Assembly (NCBI GenBank): GCA_900318835.1
Contig: ONLW01000007.1
Coordinates: forward strand, 1 to 64,000
Direction of reading: 5' to 3'
DNA length: 64,000 nucleotides
DNA from: an uncultured Bacteroidales bacterium
GTDB taxonomy: Bacteria; Bacteroidota; Bacteroidia; Bacteroidales; P3
In this document: one piece after another, positions 10,909 to 61,925 of the stretch
Layout: every line of letters begins with the position of its first letter
Position numbering within the stretch: the first letter of the stretch is position 1
Notes under the pieces: model-generated
Told to the model about the DNA's origin: nothing
The model's database searches: none
What the model saw: only the letters and a program-made list of their open reading frames with translations
Program-made: the position numbers and the translations under genes

Positions 10909-10996
10909 AAGTACCAACTCCCTATCAACACCCTACCAACTCCTACCCATGTCCTACCATAGTAGGAGTTGGTAGGGTGTTGATAGGTTTTTGATA
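10909..10996. repeat. 11-bp palindromic array, copy 1
   Basis: Eight contiguous 11-bp units in strict phase. The left half is CCCTACCAACT type and the right half its complement (GGGTGTTGATA type). Arms 10922-10946 and 10962-10986 form a perfect 25-bp inverted repeat around a 15-nt loop. It is intergenic between the alpha-2-macroglobulin and arginine deiminase genes and could also act as a transcription terminator or RNA hairpin. Confidence 0.9.
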
Positions 10997-11012
10997 AAAA
11001 TATCGTGTCAAG

Positions 11013-11044
11013 TTTGTGGGGTTTCAATCTTTTTTGTATATTTG
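11013..11044 (+). promoter_or_regulatory. Bacteroidota-type promoter
   Basis: TTTG at 11013-11016, 20 bp, TATATTTG at 11037-11044, about 60 bp before arcA. Confidence 0.8.
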
Positions 11045-11105
11045 CAATTTTACAAGGCTGGCCTTTTTCGGGTGAAGTTGTTGTGTATTAATTATTAATA
11101 AGAAT

Positions 11106-12350
11106 ATGACTAATAAAAATATTACACCGTGTAAGGTTAATGTGAGTTCGGAGACGGGTATGCTGCGTGCTGTGCTGCTGCATCGACCTGGTGTGGAGAT
11201 TGAGCGAATGACCCCCCTGAATGCTGCCCACGCGCTGTATAGTGACATCTTGAATAAACCGATTGTCGATACCGAATATTCCAATTTCTGCGGCGTGCTG
11301 GAGCACTGGACCAACGTCTATTATGTAGAGGATATTCTTGAGGAACTGTTGAAGGACAACGAGATACGCCAACACCTCGTCTACGAGAGTTGTGACATGG
11401 ACAATTGCGACGACGGTCTGGCAGAGCAGTTGATGGAATTGGATTCCAAGCAATTGGCCGATATTTTGATTGAGGGTTACGAAGACCCCGAATGGGATGG
11501 GGGAGAGGACCGCTACCTTTTGAAGCCTCTTTACAACCTCTTTTTCACCCGCGACGCCTCCTCAACGGTCTACAACCGTGTGCTTATCAACTCGATGAGC
11601 TTCGAGGTGCGTGAGCGCGAGACCCTTATCTATGAGGCCATTTTCAAGCACTTCTTCAAAGTTGATACCCTCAATGCCATGGCTTGGGACCGCGACGCGC
11701 GGACCGAGGGCGGCGATGTGCAGATTGCCTCGCCCAACCTGCTCTGTATCGGCCAGGGTATACGTACCAATACTAAGGGTATCAAATACTTGGCACAGAC
11801 TTTTGCCAAGGAGCGCGAAAAGTTCAACATCCTTGTGCAGGAACTGCCGAAGAGCCCCGAAAGTTTCATCCATCTTGACATGGTGTTCACCTTCTTGGGC
11901 AAGCACCAGTGCATGGCTTTCGAGCCGATGCTGAAGAAGACCGGCCTCTTTGCGGGCAAGGATACTACGCTGATTTCCATTGAAAACGGAAAAATTAGCT
12001 ACCACAAGGTGAACAATATCGTTGACGGACTGAATGGCCTCGGATGGGACATTGAGCCTGTCATTGGAGGCGGCAGCGACCCGTGGAATCAGCTGCGCGA
12101 GCAATGGCACAGCGGTGCCAACTTCTTCTCGCTGGGCGATGGCAAGATTATGGGTTACCGTCGTAACACGCACACCATCGATGCCCTCGACAAGGCCGGT
12201 TTCGCCATACTCAAGGCCGAGGATATCTGCAGTGGAAAGGTAAAGATGGCAGACTACGAGAAGTTTGTTGCCGCCTTCCCCGGCAGCGAACTGCCCCGCG
12301 CAGGCGGTGGTGCCCGCTGCATGACTATGCCTATTTTGAGAGAAAACTAA
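11106..12350 (+). CDS. arcA: arginine deiminase
   Basis: Cytoplasmic enzyme that hydrolyses L-arginine to citrulline and ammonia, the first step of the arginine deiminase pathway. The 414 residues fit the family length. Visible active-site elements of the guanidino-group-modifying fold are FTRD (147-150), EGGD (201-204), the catalytic His in HLDMVFT (His 256), and the nucleophilic Cys in GGARCMTMP (Cys 405), so the enzyme should be active. It has its own promoter. No ornithine carbamoyltransferase, carbamate kinase or arginine-ornithine antiporter gene is adjacent, so the rest of the pathway must be encoded elsewhere if present. The DUF2723 gene follows after 12 bp and may be co-transcribed. 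Confidence 0.93.
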   Translation: MTNKNITPCKVNVSSETGMLRAVLLHRPGVEIERMTPLNAAHALYSDILNKPIVDTEYSNFCGVLEHWTNVYYVEDILEELLKDNEIRQHLVYESCDMDNCDDGLAEQLMELDSKQLADILIEGYEDPEWDGGEDRYLLKPLYNLFFTRDASSTVYNRVLINSMSFEVRERETLIYEAIFKHFFKVDTLNAMAWDRDARTEGGDVQIASPNLLCIGQGIRTNTKGIKYLAQTFAKEREKFNILVQELPKSPESFIHLDMVFTFLGKHQCMAFEPMLKKTGLFAGKDTTLISIENGKISYHKVNNIVDGLNGLGWDIEPVIGGGSDPWNQLREQWHSGANFFSLGDGKIMGYRRNTHTIDALDKAGFAILKAEDICSGKVKMADYEKFVAAFPGSELPRAGGGARCMTMPILREN

Positions 12351-12362
12351 TTAACTAACACA

Positions 12363-15300
12363 ATGAAACAATACCATCTAGCAAACAACATCATCGGATG
12401 GGTAATCTGCTTGATTGCCTGCACGGTGTACATCATGACGGCGGAAGCTACCGCGTCGTGGTGGGATTGCGGTGAGTACATCGCCACCGCCTTTAAACTG
12501 CAAGTGGGACACCCTCCGGGAGCCCCAACCTTCCAACTGCTTGGACGCCTGTTCTCTATGTTCAGTGACACGACGACAGCAGCCCATGCCGTCAACGTGC
12601 TGAGCGCCGTTTGCAGCGGTTTTACTATTCTGTTCCTTTTCTGGGCTATCACTTTGTTGGGCAAGCATTTGCTTCCCGACCCGAAGAATCCCAGCCTGAA
12701 GGACTGGAAGACTTGGGCGGTCTTTGCCGCCGGTATTGTGGGTTCGTTGGCCTACTGCTTCAGCGACACCTTCTGGTTCTCGGCTGTCGAGGGCGAGGTC
12801 TATGCCATGAGTAGCTTCTTCACGGCACTAGTGTTCTGGGCCATCCTGAAATGGGAGGAACAGAGCGATGACCCGCACGCGCTGCGCTGGCTCATCCTCA
12901 TCAGCCTGCTGGTGGGCGTGGCCATCGGTGTCCATCTGTTGAACCTGCTTACCGTGCCTGCCATCTTCTATGTTGTGTACTTCAAGAAATGGCCTAAAAC
13001 TACCTGGAAGGGTTTCATTGTCACGGGATTGCTTTCGTTGGTAACTCTCGGCATCATTCTTTGGGGTATCATCCCCGGTATTGTGAATGTCGACTCGGCC
13101 TTCGATGTTTTCTTTGTCAATACGCTGCACCTGCCGTTCAACAGTGGCACCATCTTCTTCTTCACGTTGCTCGTGGCCCTGATTGTTTGGGGCCTGTGGT
13201 TCACATGGAAGAAGAAACATCCGGTGATTAATGCCGCCATTCTGAGCTTTGCGATGCTGGTTATTGGCTATTCGACTTTCTTTGTGCTCGTTATCCGAGC
13301 CAATACCAACACGCCGCTCAACGAGAACGCTCCGAAGGACGCTGTGGCCATGAGGGCTTATCTGGGACGTGAGCAGTACGGCGACACGCCGCTCTTCAGC
13401 GGTCAGTACTACACTGCCGGACGTCCCATTGATTCCAAGAAGGGCTATACCAAGTATGTACGAGGAAAGGACGAGCAGGGCCGCGACCGCTACATTGCAG
13501 CCGACTATGCCCGTGAACTTATCTACCGTGAGGAACATACAGGCTTCTTCCCTCGCATGTGGAGCAGCGACGGCACCCGCCAGCACCCGAAGTTTTATGA
13601 ATATTGGGCCGGTTCCGCTCCCAGCGGCATGAAGCCTACTTTCGGACAAAATCTGAAGTTCTTCAACCGCTACCAGTTGGGCTGGATGTATTGGCGCTAC
13701 TTCATGTGGAACTTTGCCGGTCGTCAGAACGATGAGCAGGGCCATTATTTCAACGACGATGGCACACGCGACTATTTGCATGGCAACTGGATTAGCGGTA
13801 TCAAGTTCCTTGATGAAAGCCGTTTGGGTCCCCAGACCGACTTGCCCGAGGCGATGCAGAACGACCGCTCCCGCAATGTCTACTATCTGTTGCCGTTGAT
13901 TCTGGGTCTCCTTGGCCTTGTCTACCATCTGCGCAAACACCCGAAAGATGCATTCATCGTCTTCATCATGTTCTTCATGACGGGTTTGGCCATCGCCATC
14001 TATCTGAACATGCCGCCGCGCCAGCCGCGTGAGCGTGACTACGCTTTCGTGGGATCTTTCAGTTTCTTCGCCATCTGGATTGGCTTGGGAGTGATTGGCT
14101 TGGCCGAGTGGATCAGTGCTCTTTTCAAGAAGAACAAGGAGAAGATGTACAAGGTAGTGATGCCTGTGGTCTTCGTGCTTTGTTTCGCCGGTGTGCCGAT
14201 GCTCATGGCTTGCCAGAACTGGGACGACCACGATCGCAGTGAGAAGACTGCCGCCCGTGACTTTGCTCAGAACTATCTGCAGAGTATTAAAAAGAATGGC
14301 GTCCTTATCACTTTCGGCGACAACGATACCTTCCCCCTGTGGTATGCCCAGGAGGTAGAGGGTACCCGCACCGACGTGCGCATATTGAACTTCACCCTGT
14401 CGGGCATGTACTGGTATGTGGAGCAGCTCTTCAACAAGCTTTATGAGAGCGAGCCTCTGCCATTCACACTGCCTAAGGAATTCTACGGGCTTGGCAAGGA
14501 CCAGTATTATGTTTTTGACAATTCGACCGAGTATCTGGAGGTGACAGAGGTTCTAGGGCTGCTGCGCGACCATCCGGAGCGCTTCACGTTGACCGACCAG
14601 CGTACTGGCGATACTTTCATGGCGCTGCCCACCAAGCGCTTCAAGATAACGCTTGACATTCCCGCATTAGTTGAGGCCGGCATGATTCCCGCCGAGATAG
14701 CCGACCAGGTGCCTCCCGAGATTCGCTGGGAACTCAACCTCAAGCCCAATGCCCCGTTTGTCTTCCGTCATGAACTTATGCTCCTCGACATTCTGGGAAC
14801 CAACAAGTTCATGCGCGATATCTATATAATGAATCCCGGTTCGAGTGGCATCCCCGACATCTTCCCGCCGGTCTACACCTACACCATTCAGGATGGCATG
14901 AACTACAAGTTCATCCCTTACCCCAAGAACAAACGCTTCACCGATGGGACTGCCGACTACTTCGTCAACGGCGTTGACGGTCAGCCACTGAAATGGGGTA
15001 ACCTCAACAGCGACATCTATGTCGACCCGGTTTCCCGTCAGCAATTTGTTCCTGCAGTGCATCAGACTATTTTGGTGTTGGCTCACGACGAGATTGCCAG
15101 AGGTAATGTCGACAAGGCTCGCCGTCTGCTTGAGATGTACGACAACAATTTCCCTGAAAAGAATTTCCATCCCGATGTCACCACAGCCTACTTCCCTGCC
15201 AGTGTCCCCATCGATGTGGTGGCTATGTACAAGGAATTGTTTGGTCTGGAGAGAGCCCGCCAGCAGTGGGACAAGGCCTTCAAATTCTTTAGTCAGCAAG

Positions 15301-15479
15301 TGGTCTACCTCAGTCGATTCCAAGGTGAGAAGGCCATTGGTGTGCGTGGAGAACTTCAGTATGACCTTCGTGTGATGGGAGCATTGAGAGACATTGCCCG
15401 CAATACGCTCGAAGACAAGGAAGCCGTGACTCAGGTTGATGCTGTGCTGGCACCGTTCAAGGGATTGATGTACGAATAA
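12363..15479 (+). CDS. DUF2723 family membrane protein (GT-C-like)
   Basis: A 1038-residue integral membrane protein of the DUF2723 family, which is classed with GT-C-type glycosyltransferases (GT117) common in Bacteroidota. The N-terminus carries the family signature (ATASWWDCGEYIATA, then VGHPPGAPTFQLLGR), followed by about ten hydrophobic segments to residue 600 and a soluble C-terminal half. A second conserved block, LNMPPRQPRERDYAF, lies near residue 545. The acidic residues in WWDCGEY are in the place expected for a GT-C catalytic or donor site. The role is probably transfer of sugar from a lipid carrier on the periplasmic face; the acceptor is unknown. A 3-bp spacer separates it from the next small gene. 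Confidence 0.88.
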   Translation: MKQYHLANNIIGWVICLIACTVYIMTAEATASWWDCGEYIATAFKLQVGHPPGAPTFQLLGRLFSMFSDTTTAAHAVNVLSAVCSGFTILFLFWAITLLGKHLLPDPKNPSLKDWKTWAVFAAGIVGSLAYCFSDTFWFSAVEGEVYAMSSFFTALVFWAILKWEEQSDDPHALRWLILISLLVGVAIGVHLLNLLTVPAIFYVVYFKKWPKTTWKGFIVTGLLSLVTLGIILWGIIPGIVNVDSAFDVFFVNTLHLPFNSGTIFFFTLLVALIVWGLWFTWKKKHPVINAAILSFAMLVIGYSTFFVLVIRANTNTPLNENAPKDAVAMRAYLGREQYGDTPLFSGQYYTAGRPIDSKKGYTKYVRGKDEQGRDRYIAADYARELIYREEHTGFFPRMWSSDGTRQHPKFYEYWAGSAPSGMKPTFGQNLKFFNRYQLGWMYWRYFMWNFAGRQNDEQGHYFNDDGTRDYLHGNWISGIKFLDESRLGPQTDLPEAMQNDRSRNVYYLLPLILGLLGLVYHLRKHPKDAFIVFIMFFMTGLAIAIYLNMPPRQPRERDYAFVGSFSFFAIWIGLGVIGLAEWISALFKKNKEKMYKVVMPVVFVLCFAGVPMLMACQNWDDHDRSEKTAARDFAQNYLQSIKKNGVLITFGDNDTFPLWYAQEVEGTRTDVRILNFTLSGMYWYVEQLFNKLYESEPLPFTLPKEFYGLGKDQYYVFDNSTEYLEVTEVLGLLRDHPERFTLTDQRTGDTFMALPTKRFKITLDIPALVEAGMIPAEIADQVPPEIRWELNLKPNAPFVFRHELMLLDILGTNKFMRDIYIMNPGSSGIPDIFPPVYTYTIQDGMNYKFIPYPKNKRFTDGTADYFVNGVDGQPLKWGNLNSDIYVDPVSRQQFVPAVHQTILVLAHDEIARGNVDKARRLLEMYDNNFPEKNFHPDVTTAYFPASVPIDVVAMYKELFGLERARQQWDKAFKFFSQQVVYLSRFQGEKAIGVRGELQYDLRVMGALRDIARNTLEDKEAVTQVDAVLAPFKGLMYE

Positions 15480-15482
15480 CTT

Positions 15483-15737
15483 ATGAACAAAAAGAAGACC
15501 CCCAAACCGAAGAAGTACACTCTCACGCTCAGCGAGCGTGAGAGTGCACGTCTCGGTGCCTATGCCGACAGCCTAGGCATTAGTCGTCCGCAGGCATTGC
15601 AACGTTTGACCAAACAGGCATTGCGCCAGGTGGCCGATGTCCCGGCCGATAGGTGCGACGCCAACCAGTTGGGGCTCTTCGATACCCTACAGATTGACAT
15701 CTTCAACAACACTGCAGTAGTAAATAATAAGGAATAA
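15483..15737 (+). CDS. small RHH-like protein
   Basis: An 84-residue basic protein. Residues 10-45 (KKYTLTLSERESARLGAYAD, then SLGISRPQALQRL) have the strand-helix-helix pattern of ribbon-helix-helix DNA-binding proteins. The C-terminal 35 residues show no recognised domain. It sits 3 bp after the DUF2723 gene and 5 bp before atpB, the place where some Bacteroidota ATP synthase operons carry a small AtpI-like membrane protein, but it has no membrane segment. It may be a regulator of this operon; the function is inferred from pattern only. Confidence 0.65.
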   Translation: MNKKKTPKPKKYTLTLSERESARLGAYADSLGISRPQALQRLTKQALRQVADVPADRCDANQLGLFDTLQIDIFNNTAVVNNKE

Positions 15738-15742
15738 TAAAT

Positions 15743-16843
15743 ATGAGGAAGATAATAGTTCTCGCTATGATGGCGCTCTTTATGGCTATGCCTGCCACCA
15801 TGCGTGCCGAGGAGAGTGAACAGTTCGATGCCGGCTCGATGATTATCGGCCATGTGACTGACGCACACTCGTGGCATCTGTTTGACTATAAATCCTCCGA
15901 TGGCGAGGATCATGCCGTAGCCATCCCATTACCCGTCATCCTATGGAACGACGGGCACCTTGATGTCTTCATGTCGAGCAAATTCCACCATGGTCATGCT
16001 GACTACAACGGCTATCGCCTAATTGGCGGTGGAGCCGAAAAGGAAGAGGTGGCTTGCGTGGGGGCCGACGGCGAGCTGATGCTTGATGCAGACGGCAATG
16101 TGGTGAAACCGCTCGACCTGAGTATCACCAAGACCGCGGCAGCCATCATTATTGCTGTAGCATTGCTCATCGTTATCATCATGGTGGCCAAGAAGGGTTA
16201 TAAAAAGCGCCCCAACCAGGCTCCCCATGGCCTCCAGAGCCTCGTGGAGTTGCTGGTGGTCTTTGTGCGCGACGACATTGTCAAGCCCATGATAGGGGAG
16301 AAACACTACCGTCGTTTTTTGCCCTATCTGCTCACGCTCTTTTTCTTTATTTTCTTCTGCAACATCTTAGGACTCATACCCATCTTCCCTGCAGGTGCCA
16401 ACATCAACGGCAGTTTGGCCGTCACCGCCACCTTGGCCGTTATCACCTTCCTCATTACCAATATCAGTGGTAACAAGCATTATTGGACCGACATCTTCAA
16501 TACTCCTGGTGTACCGGCATGGCTGAAGGTCTTCCCGTTGATGCCTGTGGTTGAGTTGGTGGGTGTCTTCACCAAACCCATTGTACTGATGATTCGACTT
16601 TTTGCCAATATGACCGCTGGCCATATTGTTATCCTCGGATTCATTGTCATCATCTACATTATAAGCCAACTCTTCGGTGTCGTTGCCGGTGGGGCTGTGT
16701 CGGTGGTGAGTGTCCTCTTCTGCGTGTTCATCAGCCTGCTGGAGTGCCTGGTGGCCTACTTGCAAGCCTTTGTCTTCACCATGCTCTCGGCCCTCTACAT
16801 CGGCATGGCCGTGGAAGAGCCTCATCACGCCGAAGCCCATTAA
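15743..16843 (+). CDS. atpB: F-type ATP synthase subunit a
   Basis: Membrane subunit a of the F1Fo ATP synthase, which forms the proton (or sodium) half-channels against the c-ring. The 366 residues include a signal peptide and a long periplasmic N-terminal extension (to about 130), as in other Bacteroidota. Five to six membrane helices follow. The key motif IRLFANMTAGHIV, with the essential Arg at about residue 283, is intact, as is FFCNILGLIP near 205. It is followed directly by pgk, not by atpE, atpF, atpH or atpA, so subunit a is separated from the rest of the complex. The spacer to pgk is a 9-bp array. Confidence 0.92.
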   Translation: MRKIIVLAMMALFMAMPATMRAEESEQFDAGSMIIGHVTDAHSWHLFDYKSSDGEDHAVAIPLPVILWNDGHLDVFMSSKFHHGHADYNGYRLIGGGAEKEEVACVGADGELMLDADGNVVKPLDLSITKTAAAIIIAVALLIVIIMVAKKGYKKRPNQAPHGLQSLVELLVVFVRDDIVKPMIGEKHYRRFLPYLLTLFFFIFFCNILGLIPIFPAGANINGSLAVTATLAVITFLITNISGNKHYWTDIFNTPGVPAWLKVFPLMPVVELVGVFTKPIVLMIRLFANMTAGHIVILGFIVIIYIISQLFGVVAGGAVSVVSVLFCVFISLLECLVAYLQAFVFTMLSALYIGMAVEEPHHAEAH

Positions 16844-16845
16844 TT

Positions 16846-16881
16846 TTGCCCAATAACCCATTAACCCCATAAACCCATGAA
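16846..16881. repeat. 9-bp array containing the pgk start codon
   Basis: Four in-phase units (TTGCCCAAT, AACCCATTA, ACCCCATAA, ACCCATGAA). It fills the whole atpB-pgk spacer, and the ATG of pgk (16877-16879) is part of the last unit. The same unit type, inverted, is found at 28081-28116. Confidence 0.8.
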
Positions 16882-18073: not shown

Positions 18074-18108
18074 AAATAAACCTACTACTCAATATTTCAA
18101 AGAACTCT

Positions 18109-18150: not shown

Positions 18151-18253
18151 ATATATAAAATAAGGCCACTTTGATGGGACATTTGTTTTTTAACTAAAAT
18201 TTAACACATTGGCCATGCTTTTCCCGTTGGTAAAGTATTGTTAATAATAATGT

Positions 18254-27552: not shown

Positions 27553-27651
27553 GCTACCACCGACCTACCATCACCCTATCATCTCCGACCATGGTAGGAG
27601 TTGGTAGGGAGTTGATACGGTGTTGGGTCGGTGTTGATAGGGAGTTGGTGC
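27553..27651. repeat. 11-bp palindromic array, copy 2
   Basis: Nine in-phase 11-bp units (for example CCTATCATCTC, CGACCATGGTA, GGAGTTGGTAG, GGAGTTGATAC, GGTGTTGGGTC, GGTGTTGATAG). It lies in the convergent spacer between ygiQ-like and PII-like genes. Of the remaining spacer (27490-27789), 27740-27788 is a gene remnant. Confidence 0.9.
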
Positions 27652-39212: not shown

Positions 39213-39311
39213 CATCCCACCGACGTACCATCACCCTATCATCTCCGACCATGGTCGATGATGGTACGGAGATGGTACGGAATTGATACGGTTTTGGGTC
39301 GGTGTTGGTCC
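39213..39311. repeat. 11-bp palindromic array, copy 3
   Basis: Nine in-phase 11-bp units: CATCCCACCGA, CGTACCATCAC, CCTATCATCTC, CGACCATGGTC, GATGATGGTAC, GGAGATGGTAC, GGAATTGATAC, GGTTTTGGGTC, GGTGTTGGTCC. The first four resemble the complement of the last five, so the array is an imperfect palindrome centred near 39253. Confidence 0.92.
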
Positions 39312-45163: not shown

Positions 45164-45255
45164 ATCCGACTACGTGCGCACTAATGGTCGGACTACGTGT
45201 GGGCATGTGGTCGCACTAGATGTGGGCATGTAGTCGCACTAGGTGTGCGTGCCTA
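45164..45255. repeat. 23-bp tandem array
   Basis: Four adjacent 23-bp units (GTCGCACTAGATGTGGGCAT-like), each made of a 12-bp and an 11-bp half (CGACTACGTG / GGGCATGTG type). Confidence 0.85.
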
Positions 45256-45479
45256 GTTGAAGGTCGAGAAAAGATTATATCTTTTTTGCAAGAAGATATG
45301 CTTTTTTTTTATGATTGGGTATATGTTTTGGGGTCAGAAAAAAGACTATACATAGACCGCCGACTCATCGCCGAGGGATCACCGAGAGGTCATGGGGTGA
45401 TGGTTTTGAAAATCAATGTTTTGTATGTTTATTGTGCTGCTTTATATATTGGGCTGGTTTTCAGTGGTTTTGTTGTTGC

Positions 45480-45534
45480 CGCAAAGAAGGCGCAAAGAAT
45501 ACACGAAGAAGGAGAGAAGAAGGCATAAAGAGCT
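45480..45534. repeat. 11-bp array (CGCAAAGAAGG type)
   Basis: Five in-phase 11-bp units: CGCAAAGAAGG, CGCAAAGAATA, CACGAAGAAGG, AGAGAAGAAGG, CATAAAGAGCT. The sequence is unlike the palindromic 11-bp arrays but has the same period. Confidence 0.75.
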
Positions 45535-49442: not shown

Positions 49443-49632
49443 AGCCCTGTAAGGGCGACAGATGTTAGCCGTGGGCGTGAGCCCACGGGACACATGACAC
49501 CCAACAGTTAGAGTCCCGGAGGGGCGACACAAACCATCGTTGGAATGTGCCGCCCCTCCGGGGCTCAAAACATACGCCTCCTTCGTTCCGTGGGCTCACG
49601 CCCACGGCTAACCAATGCCGCCCCTCTGGGGC
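49443..49632. repeat. nested palindromic element
   Basis: A perfect 25-bp inverted repeat (49464-49488 with 49588-49612), each arm itself palindromic (CCGTGGGC/GCCCACGG), encloses a second 20-bp inverted repeat (49511-49530 with 49547-49566, two mismatches; GGAGGGGCG core). It looks like a MITE- or REP-like intergenic element. No open reading frame is convincing inside it. Confidence 0.75.
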
Positions 49633-49657
49633 TCCCCTGCCTTCCGACGTGACAATA

Positions 49658-52174: not shown

Positions 52175-52846
52175 ATGATTGCAGAGAACATAGCCAAGAT
52201 TCGTGCTGAGCTGCCCGAAGGCGTACGCCTGATAGCGGTCTCCAAGCTGAAGCCCGTGGAGGACATCCAGGAAGCCTATGCTGCCGGTCAGCGCCTCTTC
52301 GGTGAGAACTACGCCACCGAGTTGCGCGACAAGCACCCTCAGTTGCCGAATGACATCGAGTGGCACTTCATAGGCCACCTGCAGGGTAAGCAACTGAAAT
52401 ACTACATCCCCTTCGTGAGCATGATTCACGGCGTGGACAGCATCGAGCACCTCGAGGAGGTGGAGAAGACCGCCGCCAAGGTGGGCCGCACCGTCGATGT
52501 GCTGCTGCAGGTGCATGTGGCGCAGGAGGAGACCAAGTTTGGTTTCCTGCCGGAAGAACTAGAGAATCTAGATAATCTAGGGAATCTAGAGCATACCAGA
52601 ATCTGCGGTGTCATGGGCATGGCTTCTCACACTGATGATGAGGCCCGTGTCCGCGCCGACTTCCGCGCCATCCGTGCCATCTTCGACCACCTCAAGGCCG
52701 GCCCTTTTGCCAGTCATCCCGAGTTCAAGGAAATCTCCATGGGTATGAGCCACGACTGGCACATCGCCGTCGAGGAGGGCAGCACCCTCATCCGCCTCGG
52801 AACTTCCATCTTCGGTCCCAGAGATTACTCTAAAATTAAAAATTAA
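52175..52846 (+). CDS. YggS/PLPBP pyridoxal phosphate homeostasis protein
   Basis: A 223-residue TIM-barrel protein that binds pyridoxal 5'-phosphate and helps maintain vitamin B6 and amino-acid balance. Signatures: RLIAVSKLKPVEDI with the PLP-binding Lys (about 25), GENYATEL, WHFIGHLQGKQ, and near the C-terminus SMGMSHDWHIAVEEGSTLIR, ending RLGTSIFG. A 9-bp CTAG array (52553-52597) encodes LEELENLDNLGNLEHT in the middle, in a position that is a loop in the family. The stop codon lies within a 7-bp array. Confidence 0.93.
   Translation: MIAENIAKIRAELPEGVRLIAVSKLKPVEDIQEAYAAGQRLFGENYATELRDKHPQLPNDIEWHFIGHLQGKQLKYYIPFVSMIHGVDSIEHLEEVEKTAAKVGRTVDVLLQVHVAQEETKFGFLPEELENLDNLGNLEHTRICGVMGMASHTDDEARVRADFRAIRAIFDHLKAGPFASHPEFKEISMGMSHDWHIAVEEGSTLIRLGTSIFGPRDYSKIKN
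52553..52597. repeat. 9-bp CTAG array in yggS
   Basis: Five in-phase units (GAAGAACTA, GAGAATCTA, GATAATCTA, GGGAATCTA, GAGCATACC). Confidence 0.88.
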
Positions 52847-52865
52847 TAATTAATAATTAAAAATC
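52831..52865. repeat. 7-bp AT-rich array, left of four-helix gene
   Basis: Five in-phase units (AAAAATT / AATAATT). It starts in the last codons of yggS and ends directly before the ATG of the four-helix-bundle gene. Confidence 0.85.
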
Positions 52866-53219: not shown

Positions 53220-53231
53220 TTTGGTCAAATA

Positions 53232-53266
53232 TTTTTAATTCTTAATTCTTAATTTTTAATTTATAT
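53232..53266. repeat. 7-bp AT-rich array, right of four-helix gene
   Basis: Five in-phase units (TTTTTAA / TTCTTAA), roughly the reverse complement of the left array at 52831-52865. Confidence 0.85.
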
Positions 53267-54844: not shown

Positions 54845-56040
54845 ACAGACCTCGTTTAGTCATAGCCCCCGGCAAGGAAAAAGCCATCCTGCGTCGTCAC
54901 CCGTGGATATTCTCGGGTGCCGTGCGACGTATCGAGGGCAATCCGCAGGAGGGTGACCTTGTCGATGTCGTCGACGCCCGCGGCCAGTGGATGGCCTCCG
55001 GACACTACCAGAACGAGAGCATCATCTGCAAGGTGCTCTCCTTCGACACACCGCAGATTGACGTTGACTTCTTCCGTTCCCGTCTCCGCTCTGCCATCGC
55101 CTATCGCGCTCATCTCGGATTCTTCAACACTCAGGACACTAATGTCTTCCGTCTTATCCATGCCGAGGGAGACTATCTGCCTGGCCTTGTTGCCGACTGG
55201 TACAACGGCGTGCTGGTGTTGCAGGCCCATTCGGTGGGCATGCACCTCATCTTCCCCCAGTTGGTGGAAATCTTCAAGGAGGAACTCGCCTCCTATGGTC
55301 TCCAGTCCATCTTCGACAAAAGCAGTGCCACCGTGTCGTCGACTTCAGTTGACGACGGCTACCTCTATGGCCCCGAGCCTCCCGAACATGAAATCACTGA
55401 GAGCGGCAACCGCCTGCTCATCAATTTCTACGAGGGTCAAAAGACGGGTTTTTTCGTCGACCAGCGCGAGAACCGGAAGCTGGTGCAGGAGTTGGCCCGG
55501 AGGCACCGTGTCCTCAATTGTTTCGGCTACACCGGCGGTTTCTCTCTTGCCGCCCTCCGCGGCGGTGCCGAATATGTGGAGACTGTGGATATCAGCCGTA
55601 AAGCCATCGACCTCTGTAACCGCAATGTGGATCTGAACTACGGCCACGACGCCCCGCACCAGGGCACCGTTGCAGATGTTCTCCATTTTTTAAGTGCAAA
55701 AGAATCTTTCACCTCTAACTTTTCACCTTTCACCTTTATCATATTAGACCCTCCCGCTTTTGCCAAGAATCACCGTTCCCTGCAACAGGGCCTGAAAGGC
55801 TACCGCGCCATCAACCAGCGCGCCATAGAGGCTTTGCCTGCAGGAGGATTGCTGATGACCTTCAGTTGCAGTCAGGCCGTTAGCAAGGAGGACTTCCAGA
55901 CCATGGTCTTCACCTCGGCTATGAATGCTGGCCGTCGTGTCCGCATCGTCCGCCAGCTCCCCCATGCGATGGACCATCCCGTCTCCATCCATCACCCTGA
56001 GGGTGAGTATCTTAAGGGACTTTTACTGGAAGTGGAATAA
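54841..56040 (+). CDS. RlmI-like 23S rRNA cytosine methyltransferase
   Basis: A 399-residue SAM-dependent methyltransferase of the RlmI/COG1092 family, which makes 5-methylcytosine in 23S rRNA. It has an N-terminal PUA-type domain (RHPWIFSGAVRRIEG, then EGDLVDVVDARGQW), a linker, and a Rossmann domain with GQKTGFFVDQRENR, VLNCFGYTGGFSLAALRGGA (SAM motif), and ILDPPAFAK (catalytic/target motif). A 7-bp array (55706-55740) encodes FTSNFSPFTF just before the DPPAF strand. It is coupled to rpe. Confidence 0.88.
   Translation: MNRPRLVIAPGKEKAILRRHPWIFSGAVRRIEGNPQEGDLVDVVDARGQWMASGHYQNESIICKVLSFDTPQIDVDFFRSRLRSAIAYRAHLGFFNTQDTNVFRLIHAEGDYLPGLVADWYNGVLVLQAHSVGMHLIFPQLVEIFKEELASYGLQSIFDKSSATVSSTSVDDGYLYGPEPPEHEITESGNRLLINFYEGQKTGFFVDQRENRKLVQELARRHRVLNCFGYTGGFSLAALRGGAEYVETVDISRKAIDLCNRNVDLNYGHDAPHQGTVADVLHFLSAKESFTSNFSPFTFIILDPPAFAKNHRSLQQGLKGYRAINQRAIEALPAGGLLMTFSCSQAVSKEDFQTMVFTSAMNAGRRVRIVRQLPHAMDHPVSIHHPEGEYLKGLLLEVE
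55706..55740. repeat. 7-bp array in rlmI-like gene
   Basis: Five in-phase units (CTTTCAC, CTCTAAC, TTTTCAC, CTTTCAC, CTTTATC). Confidence 0.82.
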
Positions 56041-56048
56041 CCTCACAA

Positions 56049-56076
56049 AACCGATACTTGTAATCGGTTGATTTTT
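56049..56076 (+). terminator. weak hairpin terminator
   Basis: A 7-bp stem AACCGAT / ATCGGTT with a 7-nt loop, followed by GATTTTT, just after the rlmI-like gene. Confidence 0.5.
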
Positions 56077-56089
56077 AGTATGCTCTAGA

Positions 56090-56199
56090 GACCAACACCG
56101 TCCTAAAACCGTACCAGCGACGTACCATTCCCCGACCATCCCCGACGATGGTCGGAGATGATAGGGTGAGGGTAGGGTGTTGGTATGTTGGATGGGGTA
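56090..56199. repeat. 11-bp palindromic array, copy 4
   Basis: Ten in-phase 11-bp units: GACCAACACCG, TCCTAAAACCG, TACCAGCGACG, TACCATTCCCC, GACCATCCCCG, ACGATGGTCGG, AGATGATAGGG, TGAGGGTAGGG, TGTTGGTATGT, TGGATGGGGTA. The switch from the ACC- to the GGT-rich strand occurs at the centre (about 56145). Confidence 0.92.
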
Positions 56200-56258
56200 A
56201 AAAAATAATATGCCCAGAATATACTTTGGGCAAGTTTTTTGCGTTATTATATACTAAA

Positions 56259-56876
56259 ATGAAAAATGAAATGGAATTAGGATACCAGAAAATAGACAAA
56301 TACGACGAAGCGTGTGTCAGCGAGATGGCTGAACACTACAAAGCTATCATCAAACTCCTGGGAGAAGACCCTGAGCGCGAGGGACTGTTGAAGAGTCCGG
56401 AACGTATCGCCAAGGCCATGCTTTTCTTCACCAACGGCTACGACCTCAACCCCGAGGAAATCCTCCGCTCGGCCATGTTCCATGAGGATTACAAACAGAT
56501 GGTCGTAGTGAAGGATATCGAGCTCTATTCGCTCTGCGAGCACCACATGGTGCCTTTCGTCGGCAAGGCCCACGTGGCCTACATCCCCAACGGTACTATT
56601 GTGGGTCTGAGTAAGATACCGCGTGTGGTGGATGCCTTCGCCCGCCGTCTGCAGGTGCAGGAACGTCTCACCAAGCAAATCAAGGACTGCATCCAGAATG
56701 TCCTCAACCCCCTCGGCGTGGCTGTGGTCATCGAGGCGCAGCACATGTGCATGTCCATGCGCGGCGTGCAGAAGCAGAACAGCGTCACCACCACCTCCGA
56801 CTTCACCGGCGCCTTCATGAAAGACCCCAAGACCCGCGAGGAGTTTATGAACATTATCGGTGTTAATCTTCATTGA
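56259..56876 (+). CDS. folE: GTP cyclohydrolase I
   Basis: First enzyme of tetrahydrofolate synthesis, converting GTP to dihydroneopterin triphosphate and formate. About 205 residues from ATG 56259. The catalytic core has the zinc ligands and active site in [20 protein letters not shown] (Cys and His), [20 protein letters not shown], and [17 protein letters not shown] (second Cys), ending FMNIIGV. I choose 56259 because the longer open frame from 56148 runs through the 11-bp palindromic array and lacks family similarity. The next gene starts 2 bp after the stop. Confidence 0.95.
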
Positions 56877-56878
56877 TT

Positions 56879-57526
56879 ATGAAAAAGTTACTTATAGGCC
56901 TTATAGGCCTTATAGGGTTTATAAGCGGTGTCCAGGCTCAGATTACGCATAACTCGCAAGGTCGCCTCGACGAGAATGCCACCGAGGTGCTGGGCAAGGC
57001 TGCCAAGAAGTTGCAAAGCGTCAAGGGCAGCGTGACCCTCACCTTGCTCGACAGTGAGAAGAAGCAGACCGGCAAGTACACCGCCGAGATTGTCTACTGG
57101 AAAGGCAAATACCATCTCACGACCGATGGCATGGAAATATGGTGCGACGGCACCACCGTATGGCAGTGGAACAAGACGGCCAAGGAGATTGTCATCAATA
57201 ATATGCCGCCCGACAGCGAGATAGACCTCCTCAACCCCGGCCGCCTCATCGTAAACTACGCCAAGAACTTCCGCGCCAAGTATATCCGCACCGAGGACGA
57301 CGGTACTGCCATCATCGACCTCCAGCCGCGTTCGGCGCAGAGCTACCACAAGATACGCCTCTTCATCGACGAGGAGTCGGGCGTGCTCAAGCGCATGGAG
57401 GTGCAGAAATACGACTCCAGCCGCGAGATATACGATTTCTCCAAACTCAAGTTTATTCCCATCAAGGGTGCCTTCAAGTTCAACCCCGAGCAACACCCCG
57501 AGGCCGAAGTAATTGACATGCGATGA
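56879..57526 (+). CDS. LolA-like outer-membrane lipoprotein carrier
   Basis: A 215-residue periplasmic protein of the LolA family, which shuttles lipoproteins to the outer membrane. A signal peptide (about 20 residues, ending GVQAQ) is followed by a half-barrel domain: KAAKKLQSVKGSVTLTLL, YWKGKYHLTTDGMEIWCDG, TTVWQWNKTAKEIVINN, and late LFIDEESGVLKRMEV. The hydrophobic core of the signal peptide (LIGLIGLIGF) is encoded by a 9-bp array. ATG at 56879 is preferred over an in-frame TTG at 56873. It overlaps tsaB by 4 bp. Confidence 0.82.
   Translation: MKKLLIGLIGLIGFISGVQAQITHNSQGRLDENATEVLGKAAKKLQSVKGSVTLTLLDSEKKQTGKYTAEIVYWKGKYHLTTDGMEIWCDGTTVWQWNKTAKEIVINNMPPDSEIDLLNPGRLIVNYAKNFRAKYIRTEDDGTAIIDLQPRSAQSYHKIRLFIDEESGVLKRMEVQKYDSSREIYDFSKLKFIPIKGAFKFNPEQHPEAEVIDMR
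56894..56929. repeat. 9-bp array in the lolA signal peptide
   Basis: Four in-phase units (ATAGGCCTT, ATAGGCCTT, ATAGGGTTT, ATAAGCGGT), encoding Ile-Gly-Leu triplets of the h-region. Confidence 0.82.
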
Positions 57527-58227
57527 AAATACTTCTGATAGAAACAGCTACCCAGATATGCTCCGTGGCGCTGGCCCTCGACGGCCGTATTGCCGTGCGC
57601 CGCGACAGCGATACCCCCAACGCGCATTCCACTCGCCTCTCGGTATTTATTGACGAGGTGTTGAAAGAGAGCTACTTGCAGCCGCGCGACCTTGACGCTG
57701 TCTGCGTTTCTGCCGGTCCTGGCAGCTACACGGGCCTCCGCATCGGTGTGAGCACTGCCAAAGGTTTTTGTTACGCCCTCGGCATTCCGCTTATTTCGGT
57801 GCCCACACTGCTCTCCATGGCTGCACTCTACAGCCTTAAGCATCCAGAATACAAGGGCCTTATCTGCCCCATGATTGACGCCCGCCGCATGGAGTGCTAC
57901 ACCATGATAGTAAAAGGTGAAATGGAAATACTCCGTGACACCCATGCCGATATCCTTGACGACGCCTCTCACCTTTCACTTTTCACCTCTTACCTTGATG
58001 GGGGAGAGGTGATGTTCATCGGCGACGGTGCCGAGAAGACACGCGACCTCCTTGGAATTCATCCCAATGCACATTATGATAGCACTTTCCGCCTTTCGGC
58101 TGAAGGAATGCTTCAACTCGCCGAGGCCAAACTGAAGGCCGGGCAGACCGAAGATGTGGCCTACTTCGAACCTTTTTATTTGAAAGATTTTGTTGCCAAG
58201 AAAAGTGTTGTCCACGGACTGAGGTAA
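57523..58227 (+). CDS. tsaB: tRNA t6A synthesis protein TsaB
   Basis: A 234-residue ASKHA-fold protein that pairs with TsaD (and TsaE) to make threonylcarbamoyladenosine at position 37 of ANN-decoding tRNAs. Signatures: LLIETATQICSVALAL at the N-terminus, NAHSTRLSVFIDEVL, SAGPGSYTGLRIGVSTAKGF (about 66-85), and PMIDARRMECYT. The C-terminal part is shorter than in E. coli. A 7-bp array (57965-57999) encodes HLSLFTSYL in it. It sits in a tight folE-lolA-tsaB-permease series with 2- to 4-bp junctions. Confidence 0.93.
   Translation: MKILLIETATQICSVALALDGRIAVRRDSDTPNAHSTRLSVFIDEVLKESYLQPRDLDAVCVSAGPGSYTGLRIGVSTAKGFCYALGIPLISVPTLLSMAALYSLKHPEYKGLICPMIDARRMECYTMIVKGEMEILRDTHADILDDASHLSLFTSYLDGGEVMFIGDGAEKTRDLLGIHPNAHYDSTFRLSAEGMLQLAEAKLKAGQTEDVAYFEPFYLKDFVAKKSVVHGLR
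57965..57999. repeat. 7-bp array in tsaB
   Basis: Five in-phase units (CCTCTCA, CCTTTCA, CTTTTCA, CCTCTTA, CCTTGAT). Confidence 0.82.
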
Positions 58228-58229
58228 GT

Positions 58230-59306
58230 ATGCTGCGCTATGTGGGAAAACGGCTGTTGTATGGATTCCTGGTGCTGCTGGGAGTCGTTACGCTGGTGTT
58301 TTTTCTCTTCAACATCCTGCCAGGAGATCCTGCGCGCATGATGCTCGGCCAGCATGCCGATGCTGAGAGTATTGAGGTCATCAACCGCGACCTCGGACTT
58401 GACAAGCCCCTGATGACGCAGTTTGCAGGCTACCTCAACGACCTCTCGCCACTTTCGTTTCATAACAACACCGACCCGCAGAGTTTCTTCTATCTCTCGC
58501 CCGACAAATACCATTACGCCACGCTTCTCAAGCTGGGCTCCACCTCGCTTGTCGTCAAAGCGCCCTATCTGCGTCGCAGCTACCAAAGCCAGCGCCGTGT
58601 GAGTGAGATTATTGCCACGGCTTTCCCCCAGACCGCCGTGCTTGCCCTTGTGGCCATGTTTTTTGCGTTGGTGGTGGGCATCACGCTGGGCGTCATCTGT
58701 GCCCTGCACAAAGACACGTGGATAGACCGCACAACACTTGTCCTCAGCACCCTTGGTATGTCGCTGCCATCGTTCTTCGCTGCCATCCTCATTGCCTGGT
58801 TCTTCGCCTATGTACTGGCTGACTGGACGCACCTCAATATGTTTGGCAACCTTTTCACCGTCGATGACTATGGTGAGGGTGAATACCTTGACCTTAAGAA
58901 TCTTATCCTTCCCGCTCTCACCCTTGGCATCCGCCCTTTGGCTACGCTCACGCAGCTCACCAAGAACTCGATGCTCGAGGCCCTGAGTCAGGATTATATA
59001 CGTACCGCGCGCGCCAAAGGCCTCAGCCATCGCCGTGTGGTGGTACACCATGCCTTGCGCAACGCCCTCAACCCCGTGGTTACATCGGCCTCGGGATGGC
59101 TGGCAGGATTGCTGGCTGGTGCCGTTTTCGTGGAGTATGTCTTCGATTGGAAGGGGATGGGCGTGGTGATTGTCGACGCCCTCGATACCTATGACTTCCC
59201 CGTTGTCATGGGAACCATCCTATTCATTTGTGTCTTGTTGGTGATAATCAATATCCTCACTGACCTTGTCTATGGCCTCCTTGATCCTCGCGTGCGCCTA
59301 CAGTGA
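58230..59306 (+). CDS. oligopeptide ABC permease (DppB/OppB type)
   Basis: A 358-residue inner-membrane permease of the peptide/nickel ABC transporter family. It starts with the typical YVGKRLLYGFLVLLGVVTLV helix and NILPGDPARMMLG, and has the EAA-loop block QDYIRTARAKGLSHRRVVVHHALRN, split here as QDYIRTARAKGLSHRR and HHALRNALNPVVT. The C-terminus has FVEYVFDWKGMG. An unusual periplasmic segment of about 60 residues (75-130) is larger than in E. coli DppB. No partner permease, ATPase or binding-protein gene is adjacent, so it must assemble with products encoded elsewhere. It is 2 bp after tsaB. The 3' end overlaps the convergent glycosyltransferase gene by 9 bp. Confidence 0.88.
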   Translation: MLRYVGKRLLYGFLVLLGVVTLVFFLFNILPGDPARMMLGQHADAESIEVINRDLGLDKPLMTQFAGYLNDLSPLSFHNNTDPQSFFYLSPDKYHYATLLKLGSTSLVVKAPYLRRSYQSQRRVSEIIATAFPQTAVLALVAMFFALVVGITLGVICALHKDTWIDRTTLVLSTLGMSLPSFFAAILIAWFFAYVLADWTHLNMFGNLFTVDDYGEGEYLDLKNLILPALTLGIRPLATLTQLTKNSMLEALSQDYIRTARAKGLSHRRVVVHHALRNALNPVVTSASGWLAGLLAGAVFVEYVFDWKGMGVVIVDALDTYDFPVVMGTILFICVLLVIINILTDLVYGLLDPRVRLQ

Positions 59307-60419
59307 GGCGATGGCGGAGGTCATCTTGTCCCAGCCGTATTTCTGTTTCTCGATGCGGCAGCCTTCTGTGAGGCGTTCTTGCCAATCCTCCTCAAAGTAG
59401 CGTACGATGGCGTCGGCGATATGCTGTGCGTTGGGCTCCACCACAAAACCGGCTTTTTCGTTGGGTACAATCTCGGGCAGACCACCCACGCGGGTAACTA
59501 CCATGGGCTTTTCGAAGTGGTAGGCTATCTGGCTTACGCCGCTCTGTGTGGCGGTCTTGTAGGGTTGCGCGACGAGGTCGGAGGCGCAGAAGTAGCGGTT
59601 CACCTCATGGTCGGGGATAAAGTCGGTGTGCATCACCACGCGGTCGCCGATGTCGAGGCGGGCAATCTGCTCCTGATAGGGCTTGGGGTCGCCGTAGAAC
59701 TCGCCGGCCACGATGAGTTTCACTCCCAGGCGCGACATGCGTTCGTCGGCCATGGCGTCGAGCAGCAGGTCGAGGCCCTTGTATTCGCGGATGAAGCCGA
59801 AAAAGAGCACGTAGCGTTGGCTCTCGCGCAGGCCGATGAGGTCGAGAGCCTCTTTGCGGCTGAGGGTGTCACCGTATTGGTCGTAGAGGGGATGTGGACT
59901 GAATAGGCGTGGCTTCAATCCATTGGGGTCGAAGAGGTTGAGTTCCTCAAGAACCGATTTGCTGAGGGTGACAAAACCGTCGTTGGAGCCCACGAAGAAT
60001 CGCGAGAATTGCTTGTCGCCCGGCCGGTGCTCGTGGGGAATGAGGTTGTGGAGGATGGCCACGCGTTTCATCCCCTTGCGCTTGGCCACGCGGCAGGCTG
60101 AACCCAAAGCCGGTGCCATGAAGGGCAGCCAGAAGGGGGTGACCAGCAAGTCGGGCTTCTGCCGTTTGATGTATCTACCTGTGCGCCACCAGGTGAAAGG
60201 ATTGATGGCGTTGAGTTTGCGGCAAATCTTCAGCCCTTCGGGAGCGGGCTCTTCGCTGTATTGTGTCTTGCCGGGGAAGAGGAACGAGGGGTACTGGAGG
60301 GTGAATGTGACCACCTCCACCTCGTGGCCTTCCTGTTGGTATTGGCGCGCCAACCTTTCGCTGAAGGCCGCGATGCCGCCACGGTAGGGCCATGCGGGAC
60401 CCAGGATGATGACTTTCAT
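59298..60419 (-). CDS. glycosyltransferase family 4 (GT-B)
   Basis: A 373-residue GT-B glycosyltransferase. The N-terminal domain has the Gly-rich acceptor loop GPAWPYRGGIAAFSERLARQ. The C-terminal donor domain has VLFFGFIREYKGLDLLLDAM, the KPYQEQIARLDIGDRVV segment, and the E-x7-E-like block PYKTATQSGVSQIAYHFEKP with VTRVGGLPEIV. It transfers a sugar from a nucleotide donor, probably in surface glycan synthesis; donor and acceptor are unknown. It has 6 bp to the TonB-C gene upstream and is in the same leftward operon. Confidence 0.9.
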   Translation of the reverse strand: MKVIILGPAWPYRGGIAAFSERLARQYQQEGHEVEVVTFTLQYPSFLFPGKTQYSEEPAPEGLKICRKLNAINPFTWWRTGRYIKRQKPDLLVTPFWLPFMAPALGSACRVAKRKGMKRVAILHNLIPHEHRPGDKQFSRFFVGSNDGFVTLSKSVLEELNLFDPNGLKPRLFSPHPLYDQYGDTLSRKEALDLIGLRESQRYVLFFGFIREYKGLDLLLDAMADERMSRLGVKLIVAGEFYGDPKPYQEQIARLDIGDRVVMHTDFIPDHEVNRYFCASDLVAQPYKTATQSGVSQIAYHFEKPMVVTRVGGLPEIVPNEKAGFVVEPNAQHIADAIVRYFEEDWQERLTEGCRIEKQKYGWDKMTSAIASL

Positions 60420-60425
60420 GGGATG

Positions 60426-60860
60426 TTATTTCAGTGAGAAGTTGATGGGTAGATTGTATTGCACGCGCTCGGGATTGCCGTGCTGGCGGCCGGGTTTCCA
60501 TTTGGGCATGAGGTTGACTACACGCAAGGCCTCTTCCCCGAATCCATGGTCAGGGCAGGGGTCGCGCAACACTCTGGCGTTGCTCACGCTGCCGTCTTTC
60601 TCGATGACGAAGGTGATGTATACCTTTCCGGAGCATTCGCAGTCGTTGCAGGGGTACTTGAGGTTGGCCGCGAGGAACTGATAGAGGGCTTCGTCGCCTC
60701 CCGGAAACTCAGGCTTCTGCTCAATCACGGTGAATATTTGGGTCCCGGATTCCGCCACCTTGGAGCCGTCGGGGGTCACTTTGACCTCTACCTTCGTATT
60801 CTGTGCCAATGCTATTCCGCTGGATAACAGTAGGAAAGTAAGGAATATCGCTCGTCTCAT
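60426..60860 (-). CDS. secreted TonB C-terminal domain protein
   Basis: A 144-residue exported protein: signal peptide (MRRAIFLTFLLLSSGIALAQ), a short linker with KPEFPGGDEALYQFLAANLKYP, and a TonB C-terminal (energy-transducer-like) domain with GKVYITFVIEKDGSVSNARV, then LRDPCPDHGFGEEALRVVNL and MPKWKPGRQHG. Real TonB proteins have an N-terminal membrane anchor; this one has a cleavable signal, so it belongs to the common Bacteroidota class of soluble TonB-C proteins of uncertain role. Its first 140 bp overlap the 3' end of the DUF6266-like gene in another frame. Confidence 0.85.
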   Translation of the reverse strand: MRRAIFLTFLLLSSGIALAQNTKVEVKVTPDGSKVAESGTQIFTVIEQKPEFPGGDEALYQFLAANLKYPCNDCECSGKVYITFVIEKDGSVSNARVLRDPCPDHGFGEEALRVVNLMPKWKPGRQHGNPERVQYNLPINFSLK

Positions 60861-61554
60861 GGTCGTGCTTATTACTAATGTTTTCCACTATTAACGCGCG
60901 ATTTTCGGGAATATTGTATCGGTCGGCGAATAAATATCCAATGTAGACGCTGTCGGAGGCGCGTCCGGCATAGTCGGTGACGAAGCCGTAGAGGTGCACT
61001 TCGAGGCCTGTCCAGTTTTCAGGCAAAGAGATGGAAACCTGACGGTTGCGGCGGAAGGCGGGGGCGGAGAGTGTGCCCTGCTGCAGCGACGGGCACCAGG
61101 CGTAGAGATACACCTCGTCGTCGCTCGACGAGCTGAGGTGCAGGGGATTCTTCTCGAAAGGCAAGGTGATTCCCGCCTCGCCGACCGTCGGTTCGGCGAA
61201 TCCCACCGGCGCCACGGGCCCCACGGCAACGAGGAGGTTCTCGTAGTCGACATGCAACTGGTTGTCGGCGAGCGAGAAACATGGTGTGTTGAGACTCATG
61301 AAGTGGTTGCATTCGGTGCGATGCGCCTTGAGGGCCTGGTTGCGCATGCCGAGGCGGAGTACGGAGCGCATCCTCGAAGCCAGTTGCGAGGCGTGGGCGA
61401 AAAGACCGCGCGCCGCCATCTGCTTGGGGGTGCGTGGGTTGCGCACAAAGCGCGGGCGCGAGCGCAGGCACCACTTGCCGCGCCACTGATAACCGATGAC
61501 AGTCCCGACGGTCCCGCGGTAGCCGTCGTTGATTCCGAAACTTTGCTTTGCCAT
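60721..61554 (-). CDS. DUF6266-like protein
   Basis: A 277-residue protein with the start typical of DUF6266: GINDGYRGTVGTVIGYQWRG, then KWCLRSRPRFVRNPRTPKQM. It has no signal peptide. The central part has beta-rich hydrophobic segments (VYLYAWCPSL, VHLYGFVTDYAGRAS). Function unknown. The last 46 codons lie over the start of the TonB-C gene in a different frame. The C-terminal 40 residues look non-family (rich in Arg, Gly, Asn), so the frame may read through after loss of an earlier stop or after a frameshift, and the natural end may be near 60860-60900. Confidence 0.7.
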   Translation of the reverse strand: MAKQSFGINDGYRGTVGTVIGYQWRGKWCLRSRPRFVRNPRTPKQMAARGLFAHASQLASRMRSVLRLGMRNQALKAHRTECNHFMSLNTPCFSLADNQLHVDYENLLVAVGPVAPVGFAEPTVGEAGITLPFEKNPLHLSSSSDDEVYLYAWCPSLQQGTLSAPAFRRNRQVSISLPENWTGLEVHLYGFVTDYAGRASDSVYIGYLFADRYNIPENRALIVENISNKHDHETSDIPYFPTVIQRNSIGTEYEGRGQSDPRRLQGGGIRDPNIHRD

Positions 61555-61581
61555 AACTGCTTATTTTTTTTCTTAATTTAA

Positions 61582-61738
61582 CGGCGAATTCTACGAATTA
61601 GGCGAATTGTTCTTTATTAATTACAAGCGAATTACGCAGATCTCGCCTGCGGAAGTTGCCGCGCGAAGCGAGCGGCATTAGCGGAATTCGCCAGCAATTG
61701 ACCTGCGTAGCATTCGTTCAATTCGTTTAATTCGCCGT
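61582..61738. repeat. palindromic element with 9-bp arms
   Basis: Left arm CGGCGAATT, CTACGAATT, AGGCGAATT (61582-61608). Right arm ATTCGTTCA, ATTCGTTTA, ATTCGCCGT (61712-61738), the approximate complement. Two smaller hairpins lie between (CGCAG/CTGCG at 61635-61651 and GCCGC/GCGGC at 61658-61676). Confidence 0.75.
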
Positions 61739-61826
61739 TGTGAAATTAACCTGCATATAATATAAGCCGAAAATGTTCCGTTGTCAAGTGGAAAAATGTT
61801 AATTAACAGTTTTTATAAAAAATCAC

Positions 61827-61925
61827 CCTATTCCCGCCGTACCATCTCCGGCCATGGATGGCGATGATACGAGGGGTATACGGCTGTGGTACGCCGATGG
61901 GACGGTGTTGGTGGTTGGATGGGCT
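61827..61925. repeat. 11-bp palindromic array, copy 5
   Basis: Nine in-phase 11-bp units: CCTATTCCCGC, CGTACCATCTC, CGGCCATGGAT, GGCGATGATAC, GAGGGGTATAC, GGCTGTGGTAC, GCCGATGGGAC, GGTGTTGGTGG, TTGGATGGGCT. Confidence 0.88.

Follow-up and report, generated by a model that had tools for sequence, protein, structure and literature searches.

The 64,000-nucleotide stretch analysed here (hereafter the window; positions 1 to 64,000 of contig ONLW01000007.1 in assembly GCA_900318835.1, from an uncultured Bacteroidales bacterium) contains intergenic palindromes built from 11-bp units that follow one another in phase, and elements of this architecture recur at even intervals in the genome of the window and in related genomes. 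That this spacing spans unrelated unit sequences is the strongest result of the study. The carriers are a group of rumen bacteria with arrays, often palindromic, at intervals of about 10,000 bases; from species to species the letters of these arrays are exchanged, but their step length and spacing persist. From the sequence comparisons we favour the view, to which we would give not quite an even chance, that the elements are DNA-level chromosome-organising sites and not RNA genes, and the pattern suggests that at these sites the chromosome is organised via DNA shape more than sequence.

The genome of the window (G000; 2.34 Mb in 43 contigs, with the window as bases 1-64000 of contig C17) was sampled over 771,919 bases, in 12 contigs or contig pieces making up 33% of the total. 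Periodicity at a lag of 11 gave 65 clusters in this sample, where the counts at lags 7, 9, 10 and 12 were 35, 42, 3 and 16, and a second-order Markov control gave no clusters at any of these five lags; the excess of lag-11 autocorrelation for which the initial annotation had proposed to look is thus present in the third of the genome covered. A scan for three in-phase units found 69 places, with both arms in 47. A symmetric profile, which gained one extra copy over that scan, found 69 copies scoring at least 10 and none in reversed sequence; 68 of the 69 scored at least 40, the remaining one being a window copy at 61827 with a score of 15.6. The core of this main family is CTCCTACC-NN-GGTAGGAG, its best columns being 97-99% conserved, and the consensus read outward from the dyad is TGGTAGGAGTTGGTAGGGAGTTGGTAG, with the first unit beginning 5 bp out. 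All 65 placed copies lie between predicted genes, as the initial annotation had said of the window copies, and four more are at contig ends; gene calls came from a simple codon-score script, so that gene edges are rough in these and all other intergenic placements. The spacers of the 65 are co-directional in 32 cases, divergent in 23 and convergent in 10, and the mix of spacer types is mildly different between occupied and unoccupied intergenic gaps (chi-square p 0.03). Exact matches to the core were found in at least the Bacteroidales/Bacteroidetes assemblies RUG11699, RUG156, UBA2939, RUG153 and RGIG4993 (80 of 101 stretches listed); the record title of RGIG4993 names roe deer rumen, and the RUG assembly names presumably denote rumen genomes.

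Neighbouring copies in G000 lie on average 10.8 kb apart (n=57, shortest interval 4.5 kb; contig C9, which had no usable gap, was excluded) with a coefficient of variation (CV) of 0.43, whereas random intergenic gaps gave a mean CV of 0.84-0.88 and, depending on gap size, a lowest value among 3000 draws of 0.54-0.60; no pair is closer than 4.5 kb, where 15-17 would be expected at random. Even spacing is seen also in a second species, G009, whose 32 copies on two contigs have a CV of 0.40, lower than in any of 3000 draws, with 0 against 8.1 pairs below 4.4 kb, and in a third, G002 (7 copies, mean 23.7 kb, CV 0.17, 1 of 3000 draws as low). A hold-out of 18 unsampled contigs contained at least 53 elements and 35 intervals, none below 6.1 kb among the matches listed, which shows the absence of close pairs in that list only. 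In 200 kb of G012, 21 places carry 11-bp units of four unrelated types (GTAGTATTACG, GAGTTCGACTT, CTGTTCTTTTA and TTGTTCTTCGG, families A to D). Four of these places have more than one unit type, and one of them, at 80.1 kb, probably represents two adjacent arrays of different units counted once, matches no more than 70 bp apart having been merged. The 21 places are never closer than 3.9 kb (CV 0.50 against 0.87, p 0.002; 0 against 5.5 pairs below 3.5 kb); the pattern for family B gave 10 matches against 4 in the reversed control. Unrelated units also appear to respect the main series in G000 and G009, where ten lag-11 arrays lie outside the profile hits, one of them AT-rich and one a main-family half copy. 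For the remaining eight, the median distance to the closest copy of the main family is 10.6 kb, whereas empty gaps drawn at random give 4.3 kb (0 of 5000), and with two further doubtful arrays removed the median test on six arrays still gives 0 of 5000 and the mean test 0.02; the other-unit arrays of both genomes sit in long gaps of the main series. Intergenic lag-9 arrays are unlike this, all 11 of them lying within 5.5 kb of main-family copies in the same two genomes; among seven lag-8 arrays, four lie within 3.2 kb and three at 9-36 kb. Since the spacing holds across families, it is apparently a property of the 11-bp architecture, not of any one sequence family.

Across the genus the phase is kept while the letters change. 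The main-family profile, scored on the best candidates per genome, has matches in 14 of 41 genomes, some of them weak, and all 14 lie within the genus; G000, G009 and G002 share one conserved sequence for it, other unit types share the main-family spacing, and 11-bp-phased arrays of other units occur in G001, G014, G016 and G021. Six of eight species have more arrays at lag 11 than at any other lag from 8 to 16. A search for periodicity together with an inverted partner found 23 lag-11 elements in G009, 20 in G000, 9 in G012 and 5 in G002, and none at lags 10, 12 or 13 in these four genomes. At lag 11 it found none in G001, G014, G016 or G021, whose arrays would therefore be mostly direct repeats. 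The same search at lag 7 gave 14 in G002, 8 in G012, 6 in G001, 4 in G000 and 2 in G009. Small samples from another 17 species in the genus (253 kb) held 11 lag-11 arrays, in 7 of the 17, along with 8 at lag 9, 6 at lag 12 and 5 at lag 8, and none of lag 11 was found in 258 kb from 16 other families of the order. Over eight species, 1 of 156 elements and arrays lies inside a predicted gene. Alignment to one known family of uniform sequence, which the initial annotation had named as evidence to the contrary, was not what we found, the elements being unknown to Rfam and non-uniform across the genus. Its statement that phase is conserved better than sequence describes the genus well but not G000, within which sequence is equally kept. 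Neither the turnover of units between species nor the even spacing was within view of that annotation.

The copies and one further array in the window are as follows.

Copy 1: 10909..10997, no strand assigned; 11-bp-phased palindrome, dyad between 10959 and 10960, score 113.
Copy 2: 27554..27651, no strand assigned; in a convergent spacer, dyad between 27591 and 27592, score 100.
Copy 3: 39214..39311, no strand assigned; in a divergent spacer, dyad between 39251 and 39252, score 79.
Copy 4: 56090..56199, no strand assigned; in a co-directional spacer, dyad between 56148 and 56149, score 71.
Copy 5, degenerate: 61827..61925, no strand assigned; in a divergent spacer, dyad between 61854 and 61855, score 15.6.
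Candidate lag-11 array of another unit: 45478..45524, no strand assigned; within the 17 kb that separate copy 3 from copy 4.

The 11-bp phase reported earlier for the five places is borne out, lag 11 being the best of lags 5-30 in all of them (match fractions 0.61, 0.58, 0.57, 0.49 and 0.42). The frame had been described as free of gaps; it is in fact broken in the middle of the palindrome, the units starting 5 bp out on either side of the dyad and leaving a 10-bp centre. Nor do the copies differ in sequence as widely as had been stated, four of the five belonging to one sequence family and the fifth, at 61827, being degenerate. Copy 1 has predicted genes of the same strand on both sides, 55 bp past one and 248 bp ahead of the next. 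An edge motif discussed below lies 70 bp from the dyad of copy 2, on the reverse strand (CTGATACTAA), and 81 bp from that of copy 3. The candidate array is weak and overlaps a mechanical open reading frame (ORF) at 45220-45528, and our results are independent of it.

The size of the elements is held while their parts vary. In the 98 copies scoring at least 40, to which this test was restricted, the total is 7.9 units per copy (standard deviation 1.4), and its variance is 1.93 against 3.11 with arms re-paired (0 of 5000 as low). Long arms are paired with short ones (r -0.38), a correlation to which the scan for at least three in-phase units could have added, as it may miss very short copies. 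Recognisable units span about 97 bp, with the edge motif at 59-81 bp from the dyad; of 101 copies, 16 carry this motif (CTGATACTA, at most one mismatch), and in 15 of these its distance is 59, 70 or 81 bp. Adjacent units within one arm are alike beyond chance (z 4.4-7.1; 91 copies from G000 and G009, copies scoring below 60 having been excluded from the mirror-matching and GC-phase tests). Between these two genomes some places are shared: by nucleotide flanks, five of the seven spacers of G000 elements found in G009 hold an element there too, and by gene pairs, 26 shared spacers comprise three with an element in both, one with an element in G000 alone and 22 with neither. Where a place is shared, the two arrays can be aligned without loss of frame, and one such place shows T-to-G changes in successive units and across the dyad. 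The initial annotation had raised templated stepwise synthesis as a possible cause, but slippage or conversion can explain both the whole-unit length steps and the homogenisation of units.

Regularly spaced protein contacts, another of the causes suggested at the outset, fit best. The lack of covariation between the arms, the position of 23 of the 65 placed copies between divergent genes, and a unit total (about 8) that is held while the arms trade off together point to a site that acts as DNA and is contacted at each helical turn. In such a site an 11-bp unit would place identical bases on the same face of the DNA at each turn, and a protein complex could touch or wrap about 100-130 bp around the dyad, reading phase and deformability more than letters; units would then be replaced through slippage and homogenisation, with phase, total length and spacing remaining. 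Its most likely role would be strong wrapping of DNA, with about one such site in each supercoil domain. More tentatively still than the DNA-level reading itself, we propose a genus-wide chromosomal ruler set by helical phase and not by sequence, with one array of some 100 bp in every 10 kb or so; its units would be interchangeable and rapidly replaced, and the arrays would define supercoil domains as points of wrapping or anchoring. The leading candidate for the binder would be DNA gyrase, with a wrapping nucleoid protein as the alternative. Gyrase leads because its E. coli site motif is symmetric, degenerate and 130 bp long with a period of 10.75 bp (PMC6379681), the gyrases of three species have a common 10-11-bp GC preference (PMC12324340), gyrase has been observed on a short palindrome (PMC12393610) and diffusible supercoils move within 10-kb domains (PMC3420936). 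Gyrase in particular is nevertheless an identification that we consider rather unlikely to be right.

Several observations weigh against a site of this kind. As a test of gyrase, the GC phase gives a mixed picture: the peak lies 4.5-6.1 bp from the dyad (modulo 11) in the main family, G012 A and G017, but at 2.6 in G022 and, weakly, at 2.4 in G012 B, and G012 C and D are incoherent. The units, moreover, resemble one another far more closely than a mere GC rhythm would require. In G002, where lags 8 and 9 lead, and in G014, where lag 9 leads, arrays of lag 11 are not the most frequent, and palindromic lag-7 arrays (14) exceed lag-11 ones (5) in G002. Even spacing is not seen in G004 (8 arrays, 7 intervals, CV 0.77, shortest 5.8 kb), and under looser settings lag 12 there matches lag 11 in frequency and two arrays lie 131 bp apart. 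Finally, places are short-lived outside the G009-G000 pair, the orthologous spacers of other species pairs including none with an element in both and 15 with an element in one.

The main rival, which keeps real weight even though we think it unlikely, is a mobile non-autonomous repeat resembling repetitive extragenic palindromic (REP) sequences or miniature inverted-repeat transposable elements (MITEs). It would have been spread by a transposase whose binding sites are the 11-bp units, would be spaced through target avoidance or because close copies are selected against, and would turn over its families as other mobile repeats do. The elements are indeed dispersed, intergenic and of high copy number, in families private to species; the G012 A family consists of near-identical copies with shared inverted flanks; and element-bearing spacers are longer than orthologous spacers without an element. 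On the other hand, the even spacing takes in families of unrelated sequence, and the gaps hold other arrays, so avoidance would need to ignore sequence. A target duplication was not recognised in alignments with empty sites, the spacers being too diverged to exclude one. Viral contigs contained no exact core, which counts against mobility and on which ground a phage origin was dropped. Y1 (IS200/RAYT-type) transposase domains are present in G000 (C23:53309-53650 and C32:25057-25347) and a Y1 match was found in 18 of 25 genus genomes, the exceptions being G006, G008, G009, G014, G016, G017 and G019. As copy-rich G009 (95% complete) is among these, a REP system with its defining Y1 transposase, the REP-associated tyrosine transposase (RAYT), was rejected.

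The elements could instead be bound by a dedicated oligomeric protein, of the ParR type or similar, that changes its specificity from species to species along with the units; this would account for the likeness of neighbouring units within an arm. Oligomer-bound 11-bp repeats are known, ParR of plasmid R1 requiring at least two such repeats (PMC9426499). In G012, by contrast, four unrelated unit types and mixed places fall under one spacing, and because these families share it, several proteins would need one common spacing rule; we regard this explanation as distinctly unlikely, and less probable than a mobile repeat.

It is improbable that the elements act as transcribed hairpins, whether as terminators, 3' untranslated regions or small RNAs, and RNA structure was dropped as the leading explanation for want of covariation and of an Rfam family. 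The arms are able to pair, with 68.7% of cells paired against 33-50% in slid versions of the alignment; the slid alignments gave covariation of 0.082-0.103, and all this is expected for a true palindrome. The G012 A palindromes, which by eye are an exception in being near-perfect with mirrored variants, would also suit a hairpin, as would some mirror matching at single columns (4, 9, 20 and 48; z 2.8-3.5, 91 copies). However, the covariance folding proposed in the initial annotation revealed no covariation of the arms beyond shuffles: over 60 aligned copies the score was 0.114 against a shuffled mean of 0.136, and 500 of 500 shuffles reached the observed value. Within the inner 27 bp, agreement between mirrored positions does not exceed that in shuffles (block z 0.3 to 1.3 in the 91 copies of G000 and G009), the outer units match their mirror below chance (z -2.5 to -3.7), no Rfam family reaches threshold on the copies, and the 23 copies between divergent genes are at odds with transcription of this kind. 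The folded RNA offered earlier as a cause is accordingly left unsupported. Least probable of all is that the elements are functionless products of neutral slippage in short tandem repeats. Units are homogenised within arms and the genomes are rich in 7-, 8- and 9-bp arrays, but neutral slippage predicts neither the even spacing nor the held total length. Also against it, the four species having 11-bp palindromic arrays lack such arrays at lags 10, 12 and 13, and 11-bp elements are nearly excluded from predicted genes, where many 7-bp arrays are found.

The 7-bp tandem arrays (for example ATTTTCA, CACTCAT and TTTCACC) are a class separate from the 11-bp arrays. They occur in the window (3322-3368, 52832-52864 and 53231-53262) and in G002, G012 and G001, some of them palindromic, and are very common in G002, with 38 in 200 kb; those overlapping predicted genes number 12 of 38 in G002, 7 of 20 in G012, 8 of 14 in G001 and 7 of 12 in G000. 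A simple microsatellite was dropped as an explanation of the 11-bp elements, the 7-bp arrays being common in some species yet often overlapping predicted genes. The window also holds 23-bp tandem repeats (45185-45257, about 2.7 copies) and, at 2237-2517, overlapping 27-, 33-, 72- and 99-bp tandem repeats within predicted ORFs, which probably encode a repetitive protein. Two matches to Acido-Lenti-1 RNA (RF01687), at 49443-49488 (-) and 49588-49633 (+), face each other 100 bp apart in this Bacteroidales-like genome.

These elements would bear on the question whether bacterial supercoil domains have sites written in the genome, and if the DNA-level reading is true they would be a natural case in which shape-only recognition and domain length become readable from sequence and can be tested. 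They are intergenic elements able to evade sequence-based repeat finding and yet look constrained. No description of them was found in the literature searched, which was titles and abstracts, with subscription papers mostly beyond reach. We are not aware of a family that is defined by phase, with letters that can be exchanged and with even spacing. The function of the elements may still prove to be a known one, such as that of gyrase sites.

Among known systems, REP sequences and bacterial interspersed mosaic elements (BIMEs) are intergenic palindromic repeats with more than 100 copies per genome, and E. coli BIME-2 binds gyrase (PMC2817692 and PMC6379681). The present elements resemble REP/BIME with RAYT in being intergenic and palindromic with many copies (69 in 772 kb), but have an 11-bp unit repeated in phase outward from the dyad, unrelated units that coexist under one even spacing, and a copy-rich carrier without a Y1 match. 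Like MITEs they are short, non-coding and dispersed, with inverted flanks in the G012 A family; they differ in their even spacing across unrelated families and in that no target duplication was recognised between the diverged spacers. The ParR-parC centromere of plasmid R1 also has 11-bp repeats, with DNA wrapped by an oligomer (PMC9426499), but it is one plasmid site, whereas hundreds of chromosomal places are expected here from the density, and the units here are inverted about a dyad. Gyrase sites, as represented by the E. coli Topo-Seq motif and the Mu strong gyrase site (PMC6379681), share with the elements symmetry, a length of about 100-130 bp, a period near 11 bp and degeneracy; but there are thousands of them and their only rhythm is one of GC content, whereas the elements described here consist of near-identical units and occur about once per 10 kb.

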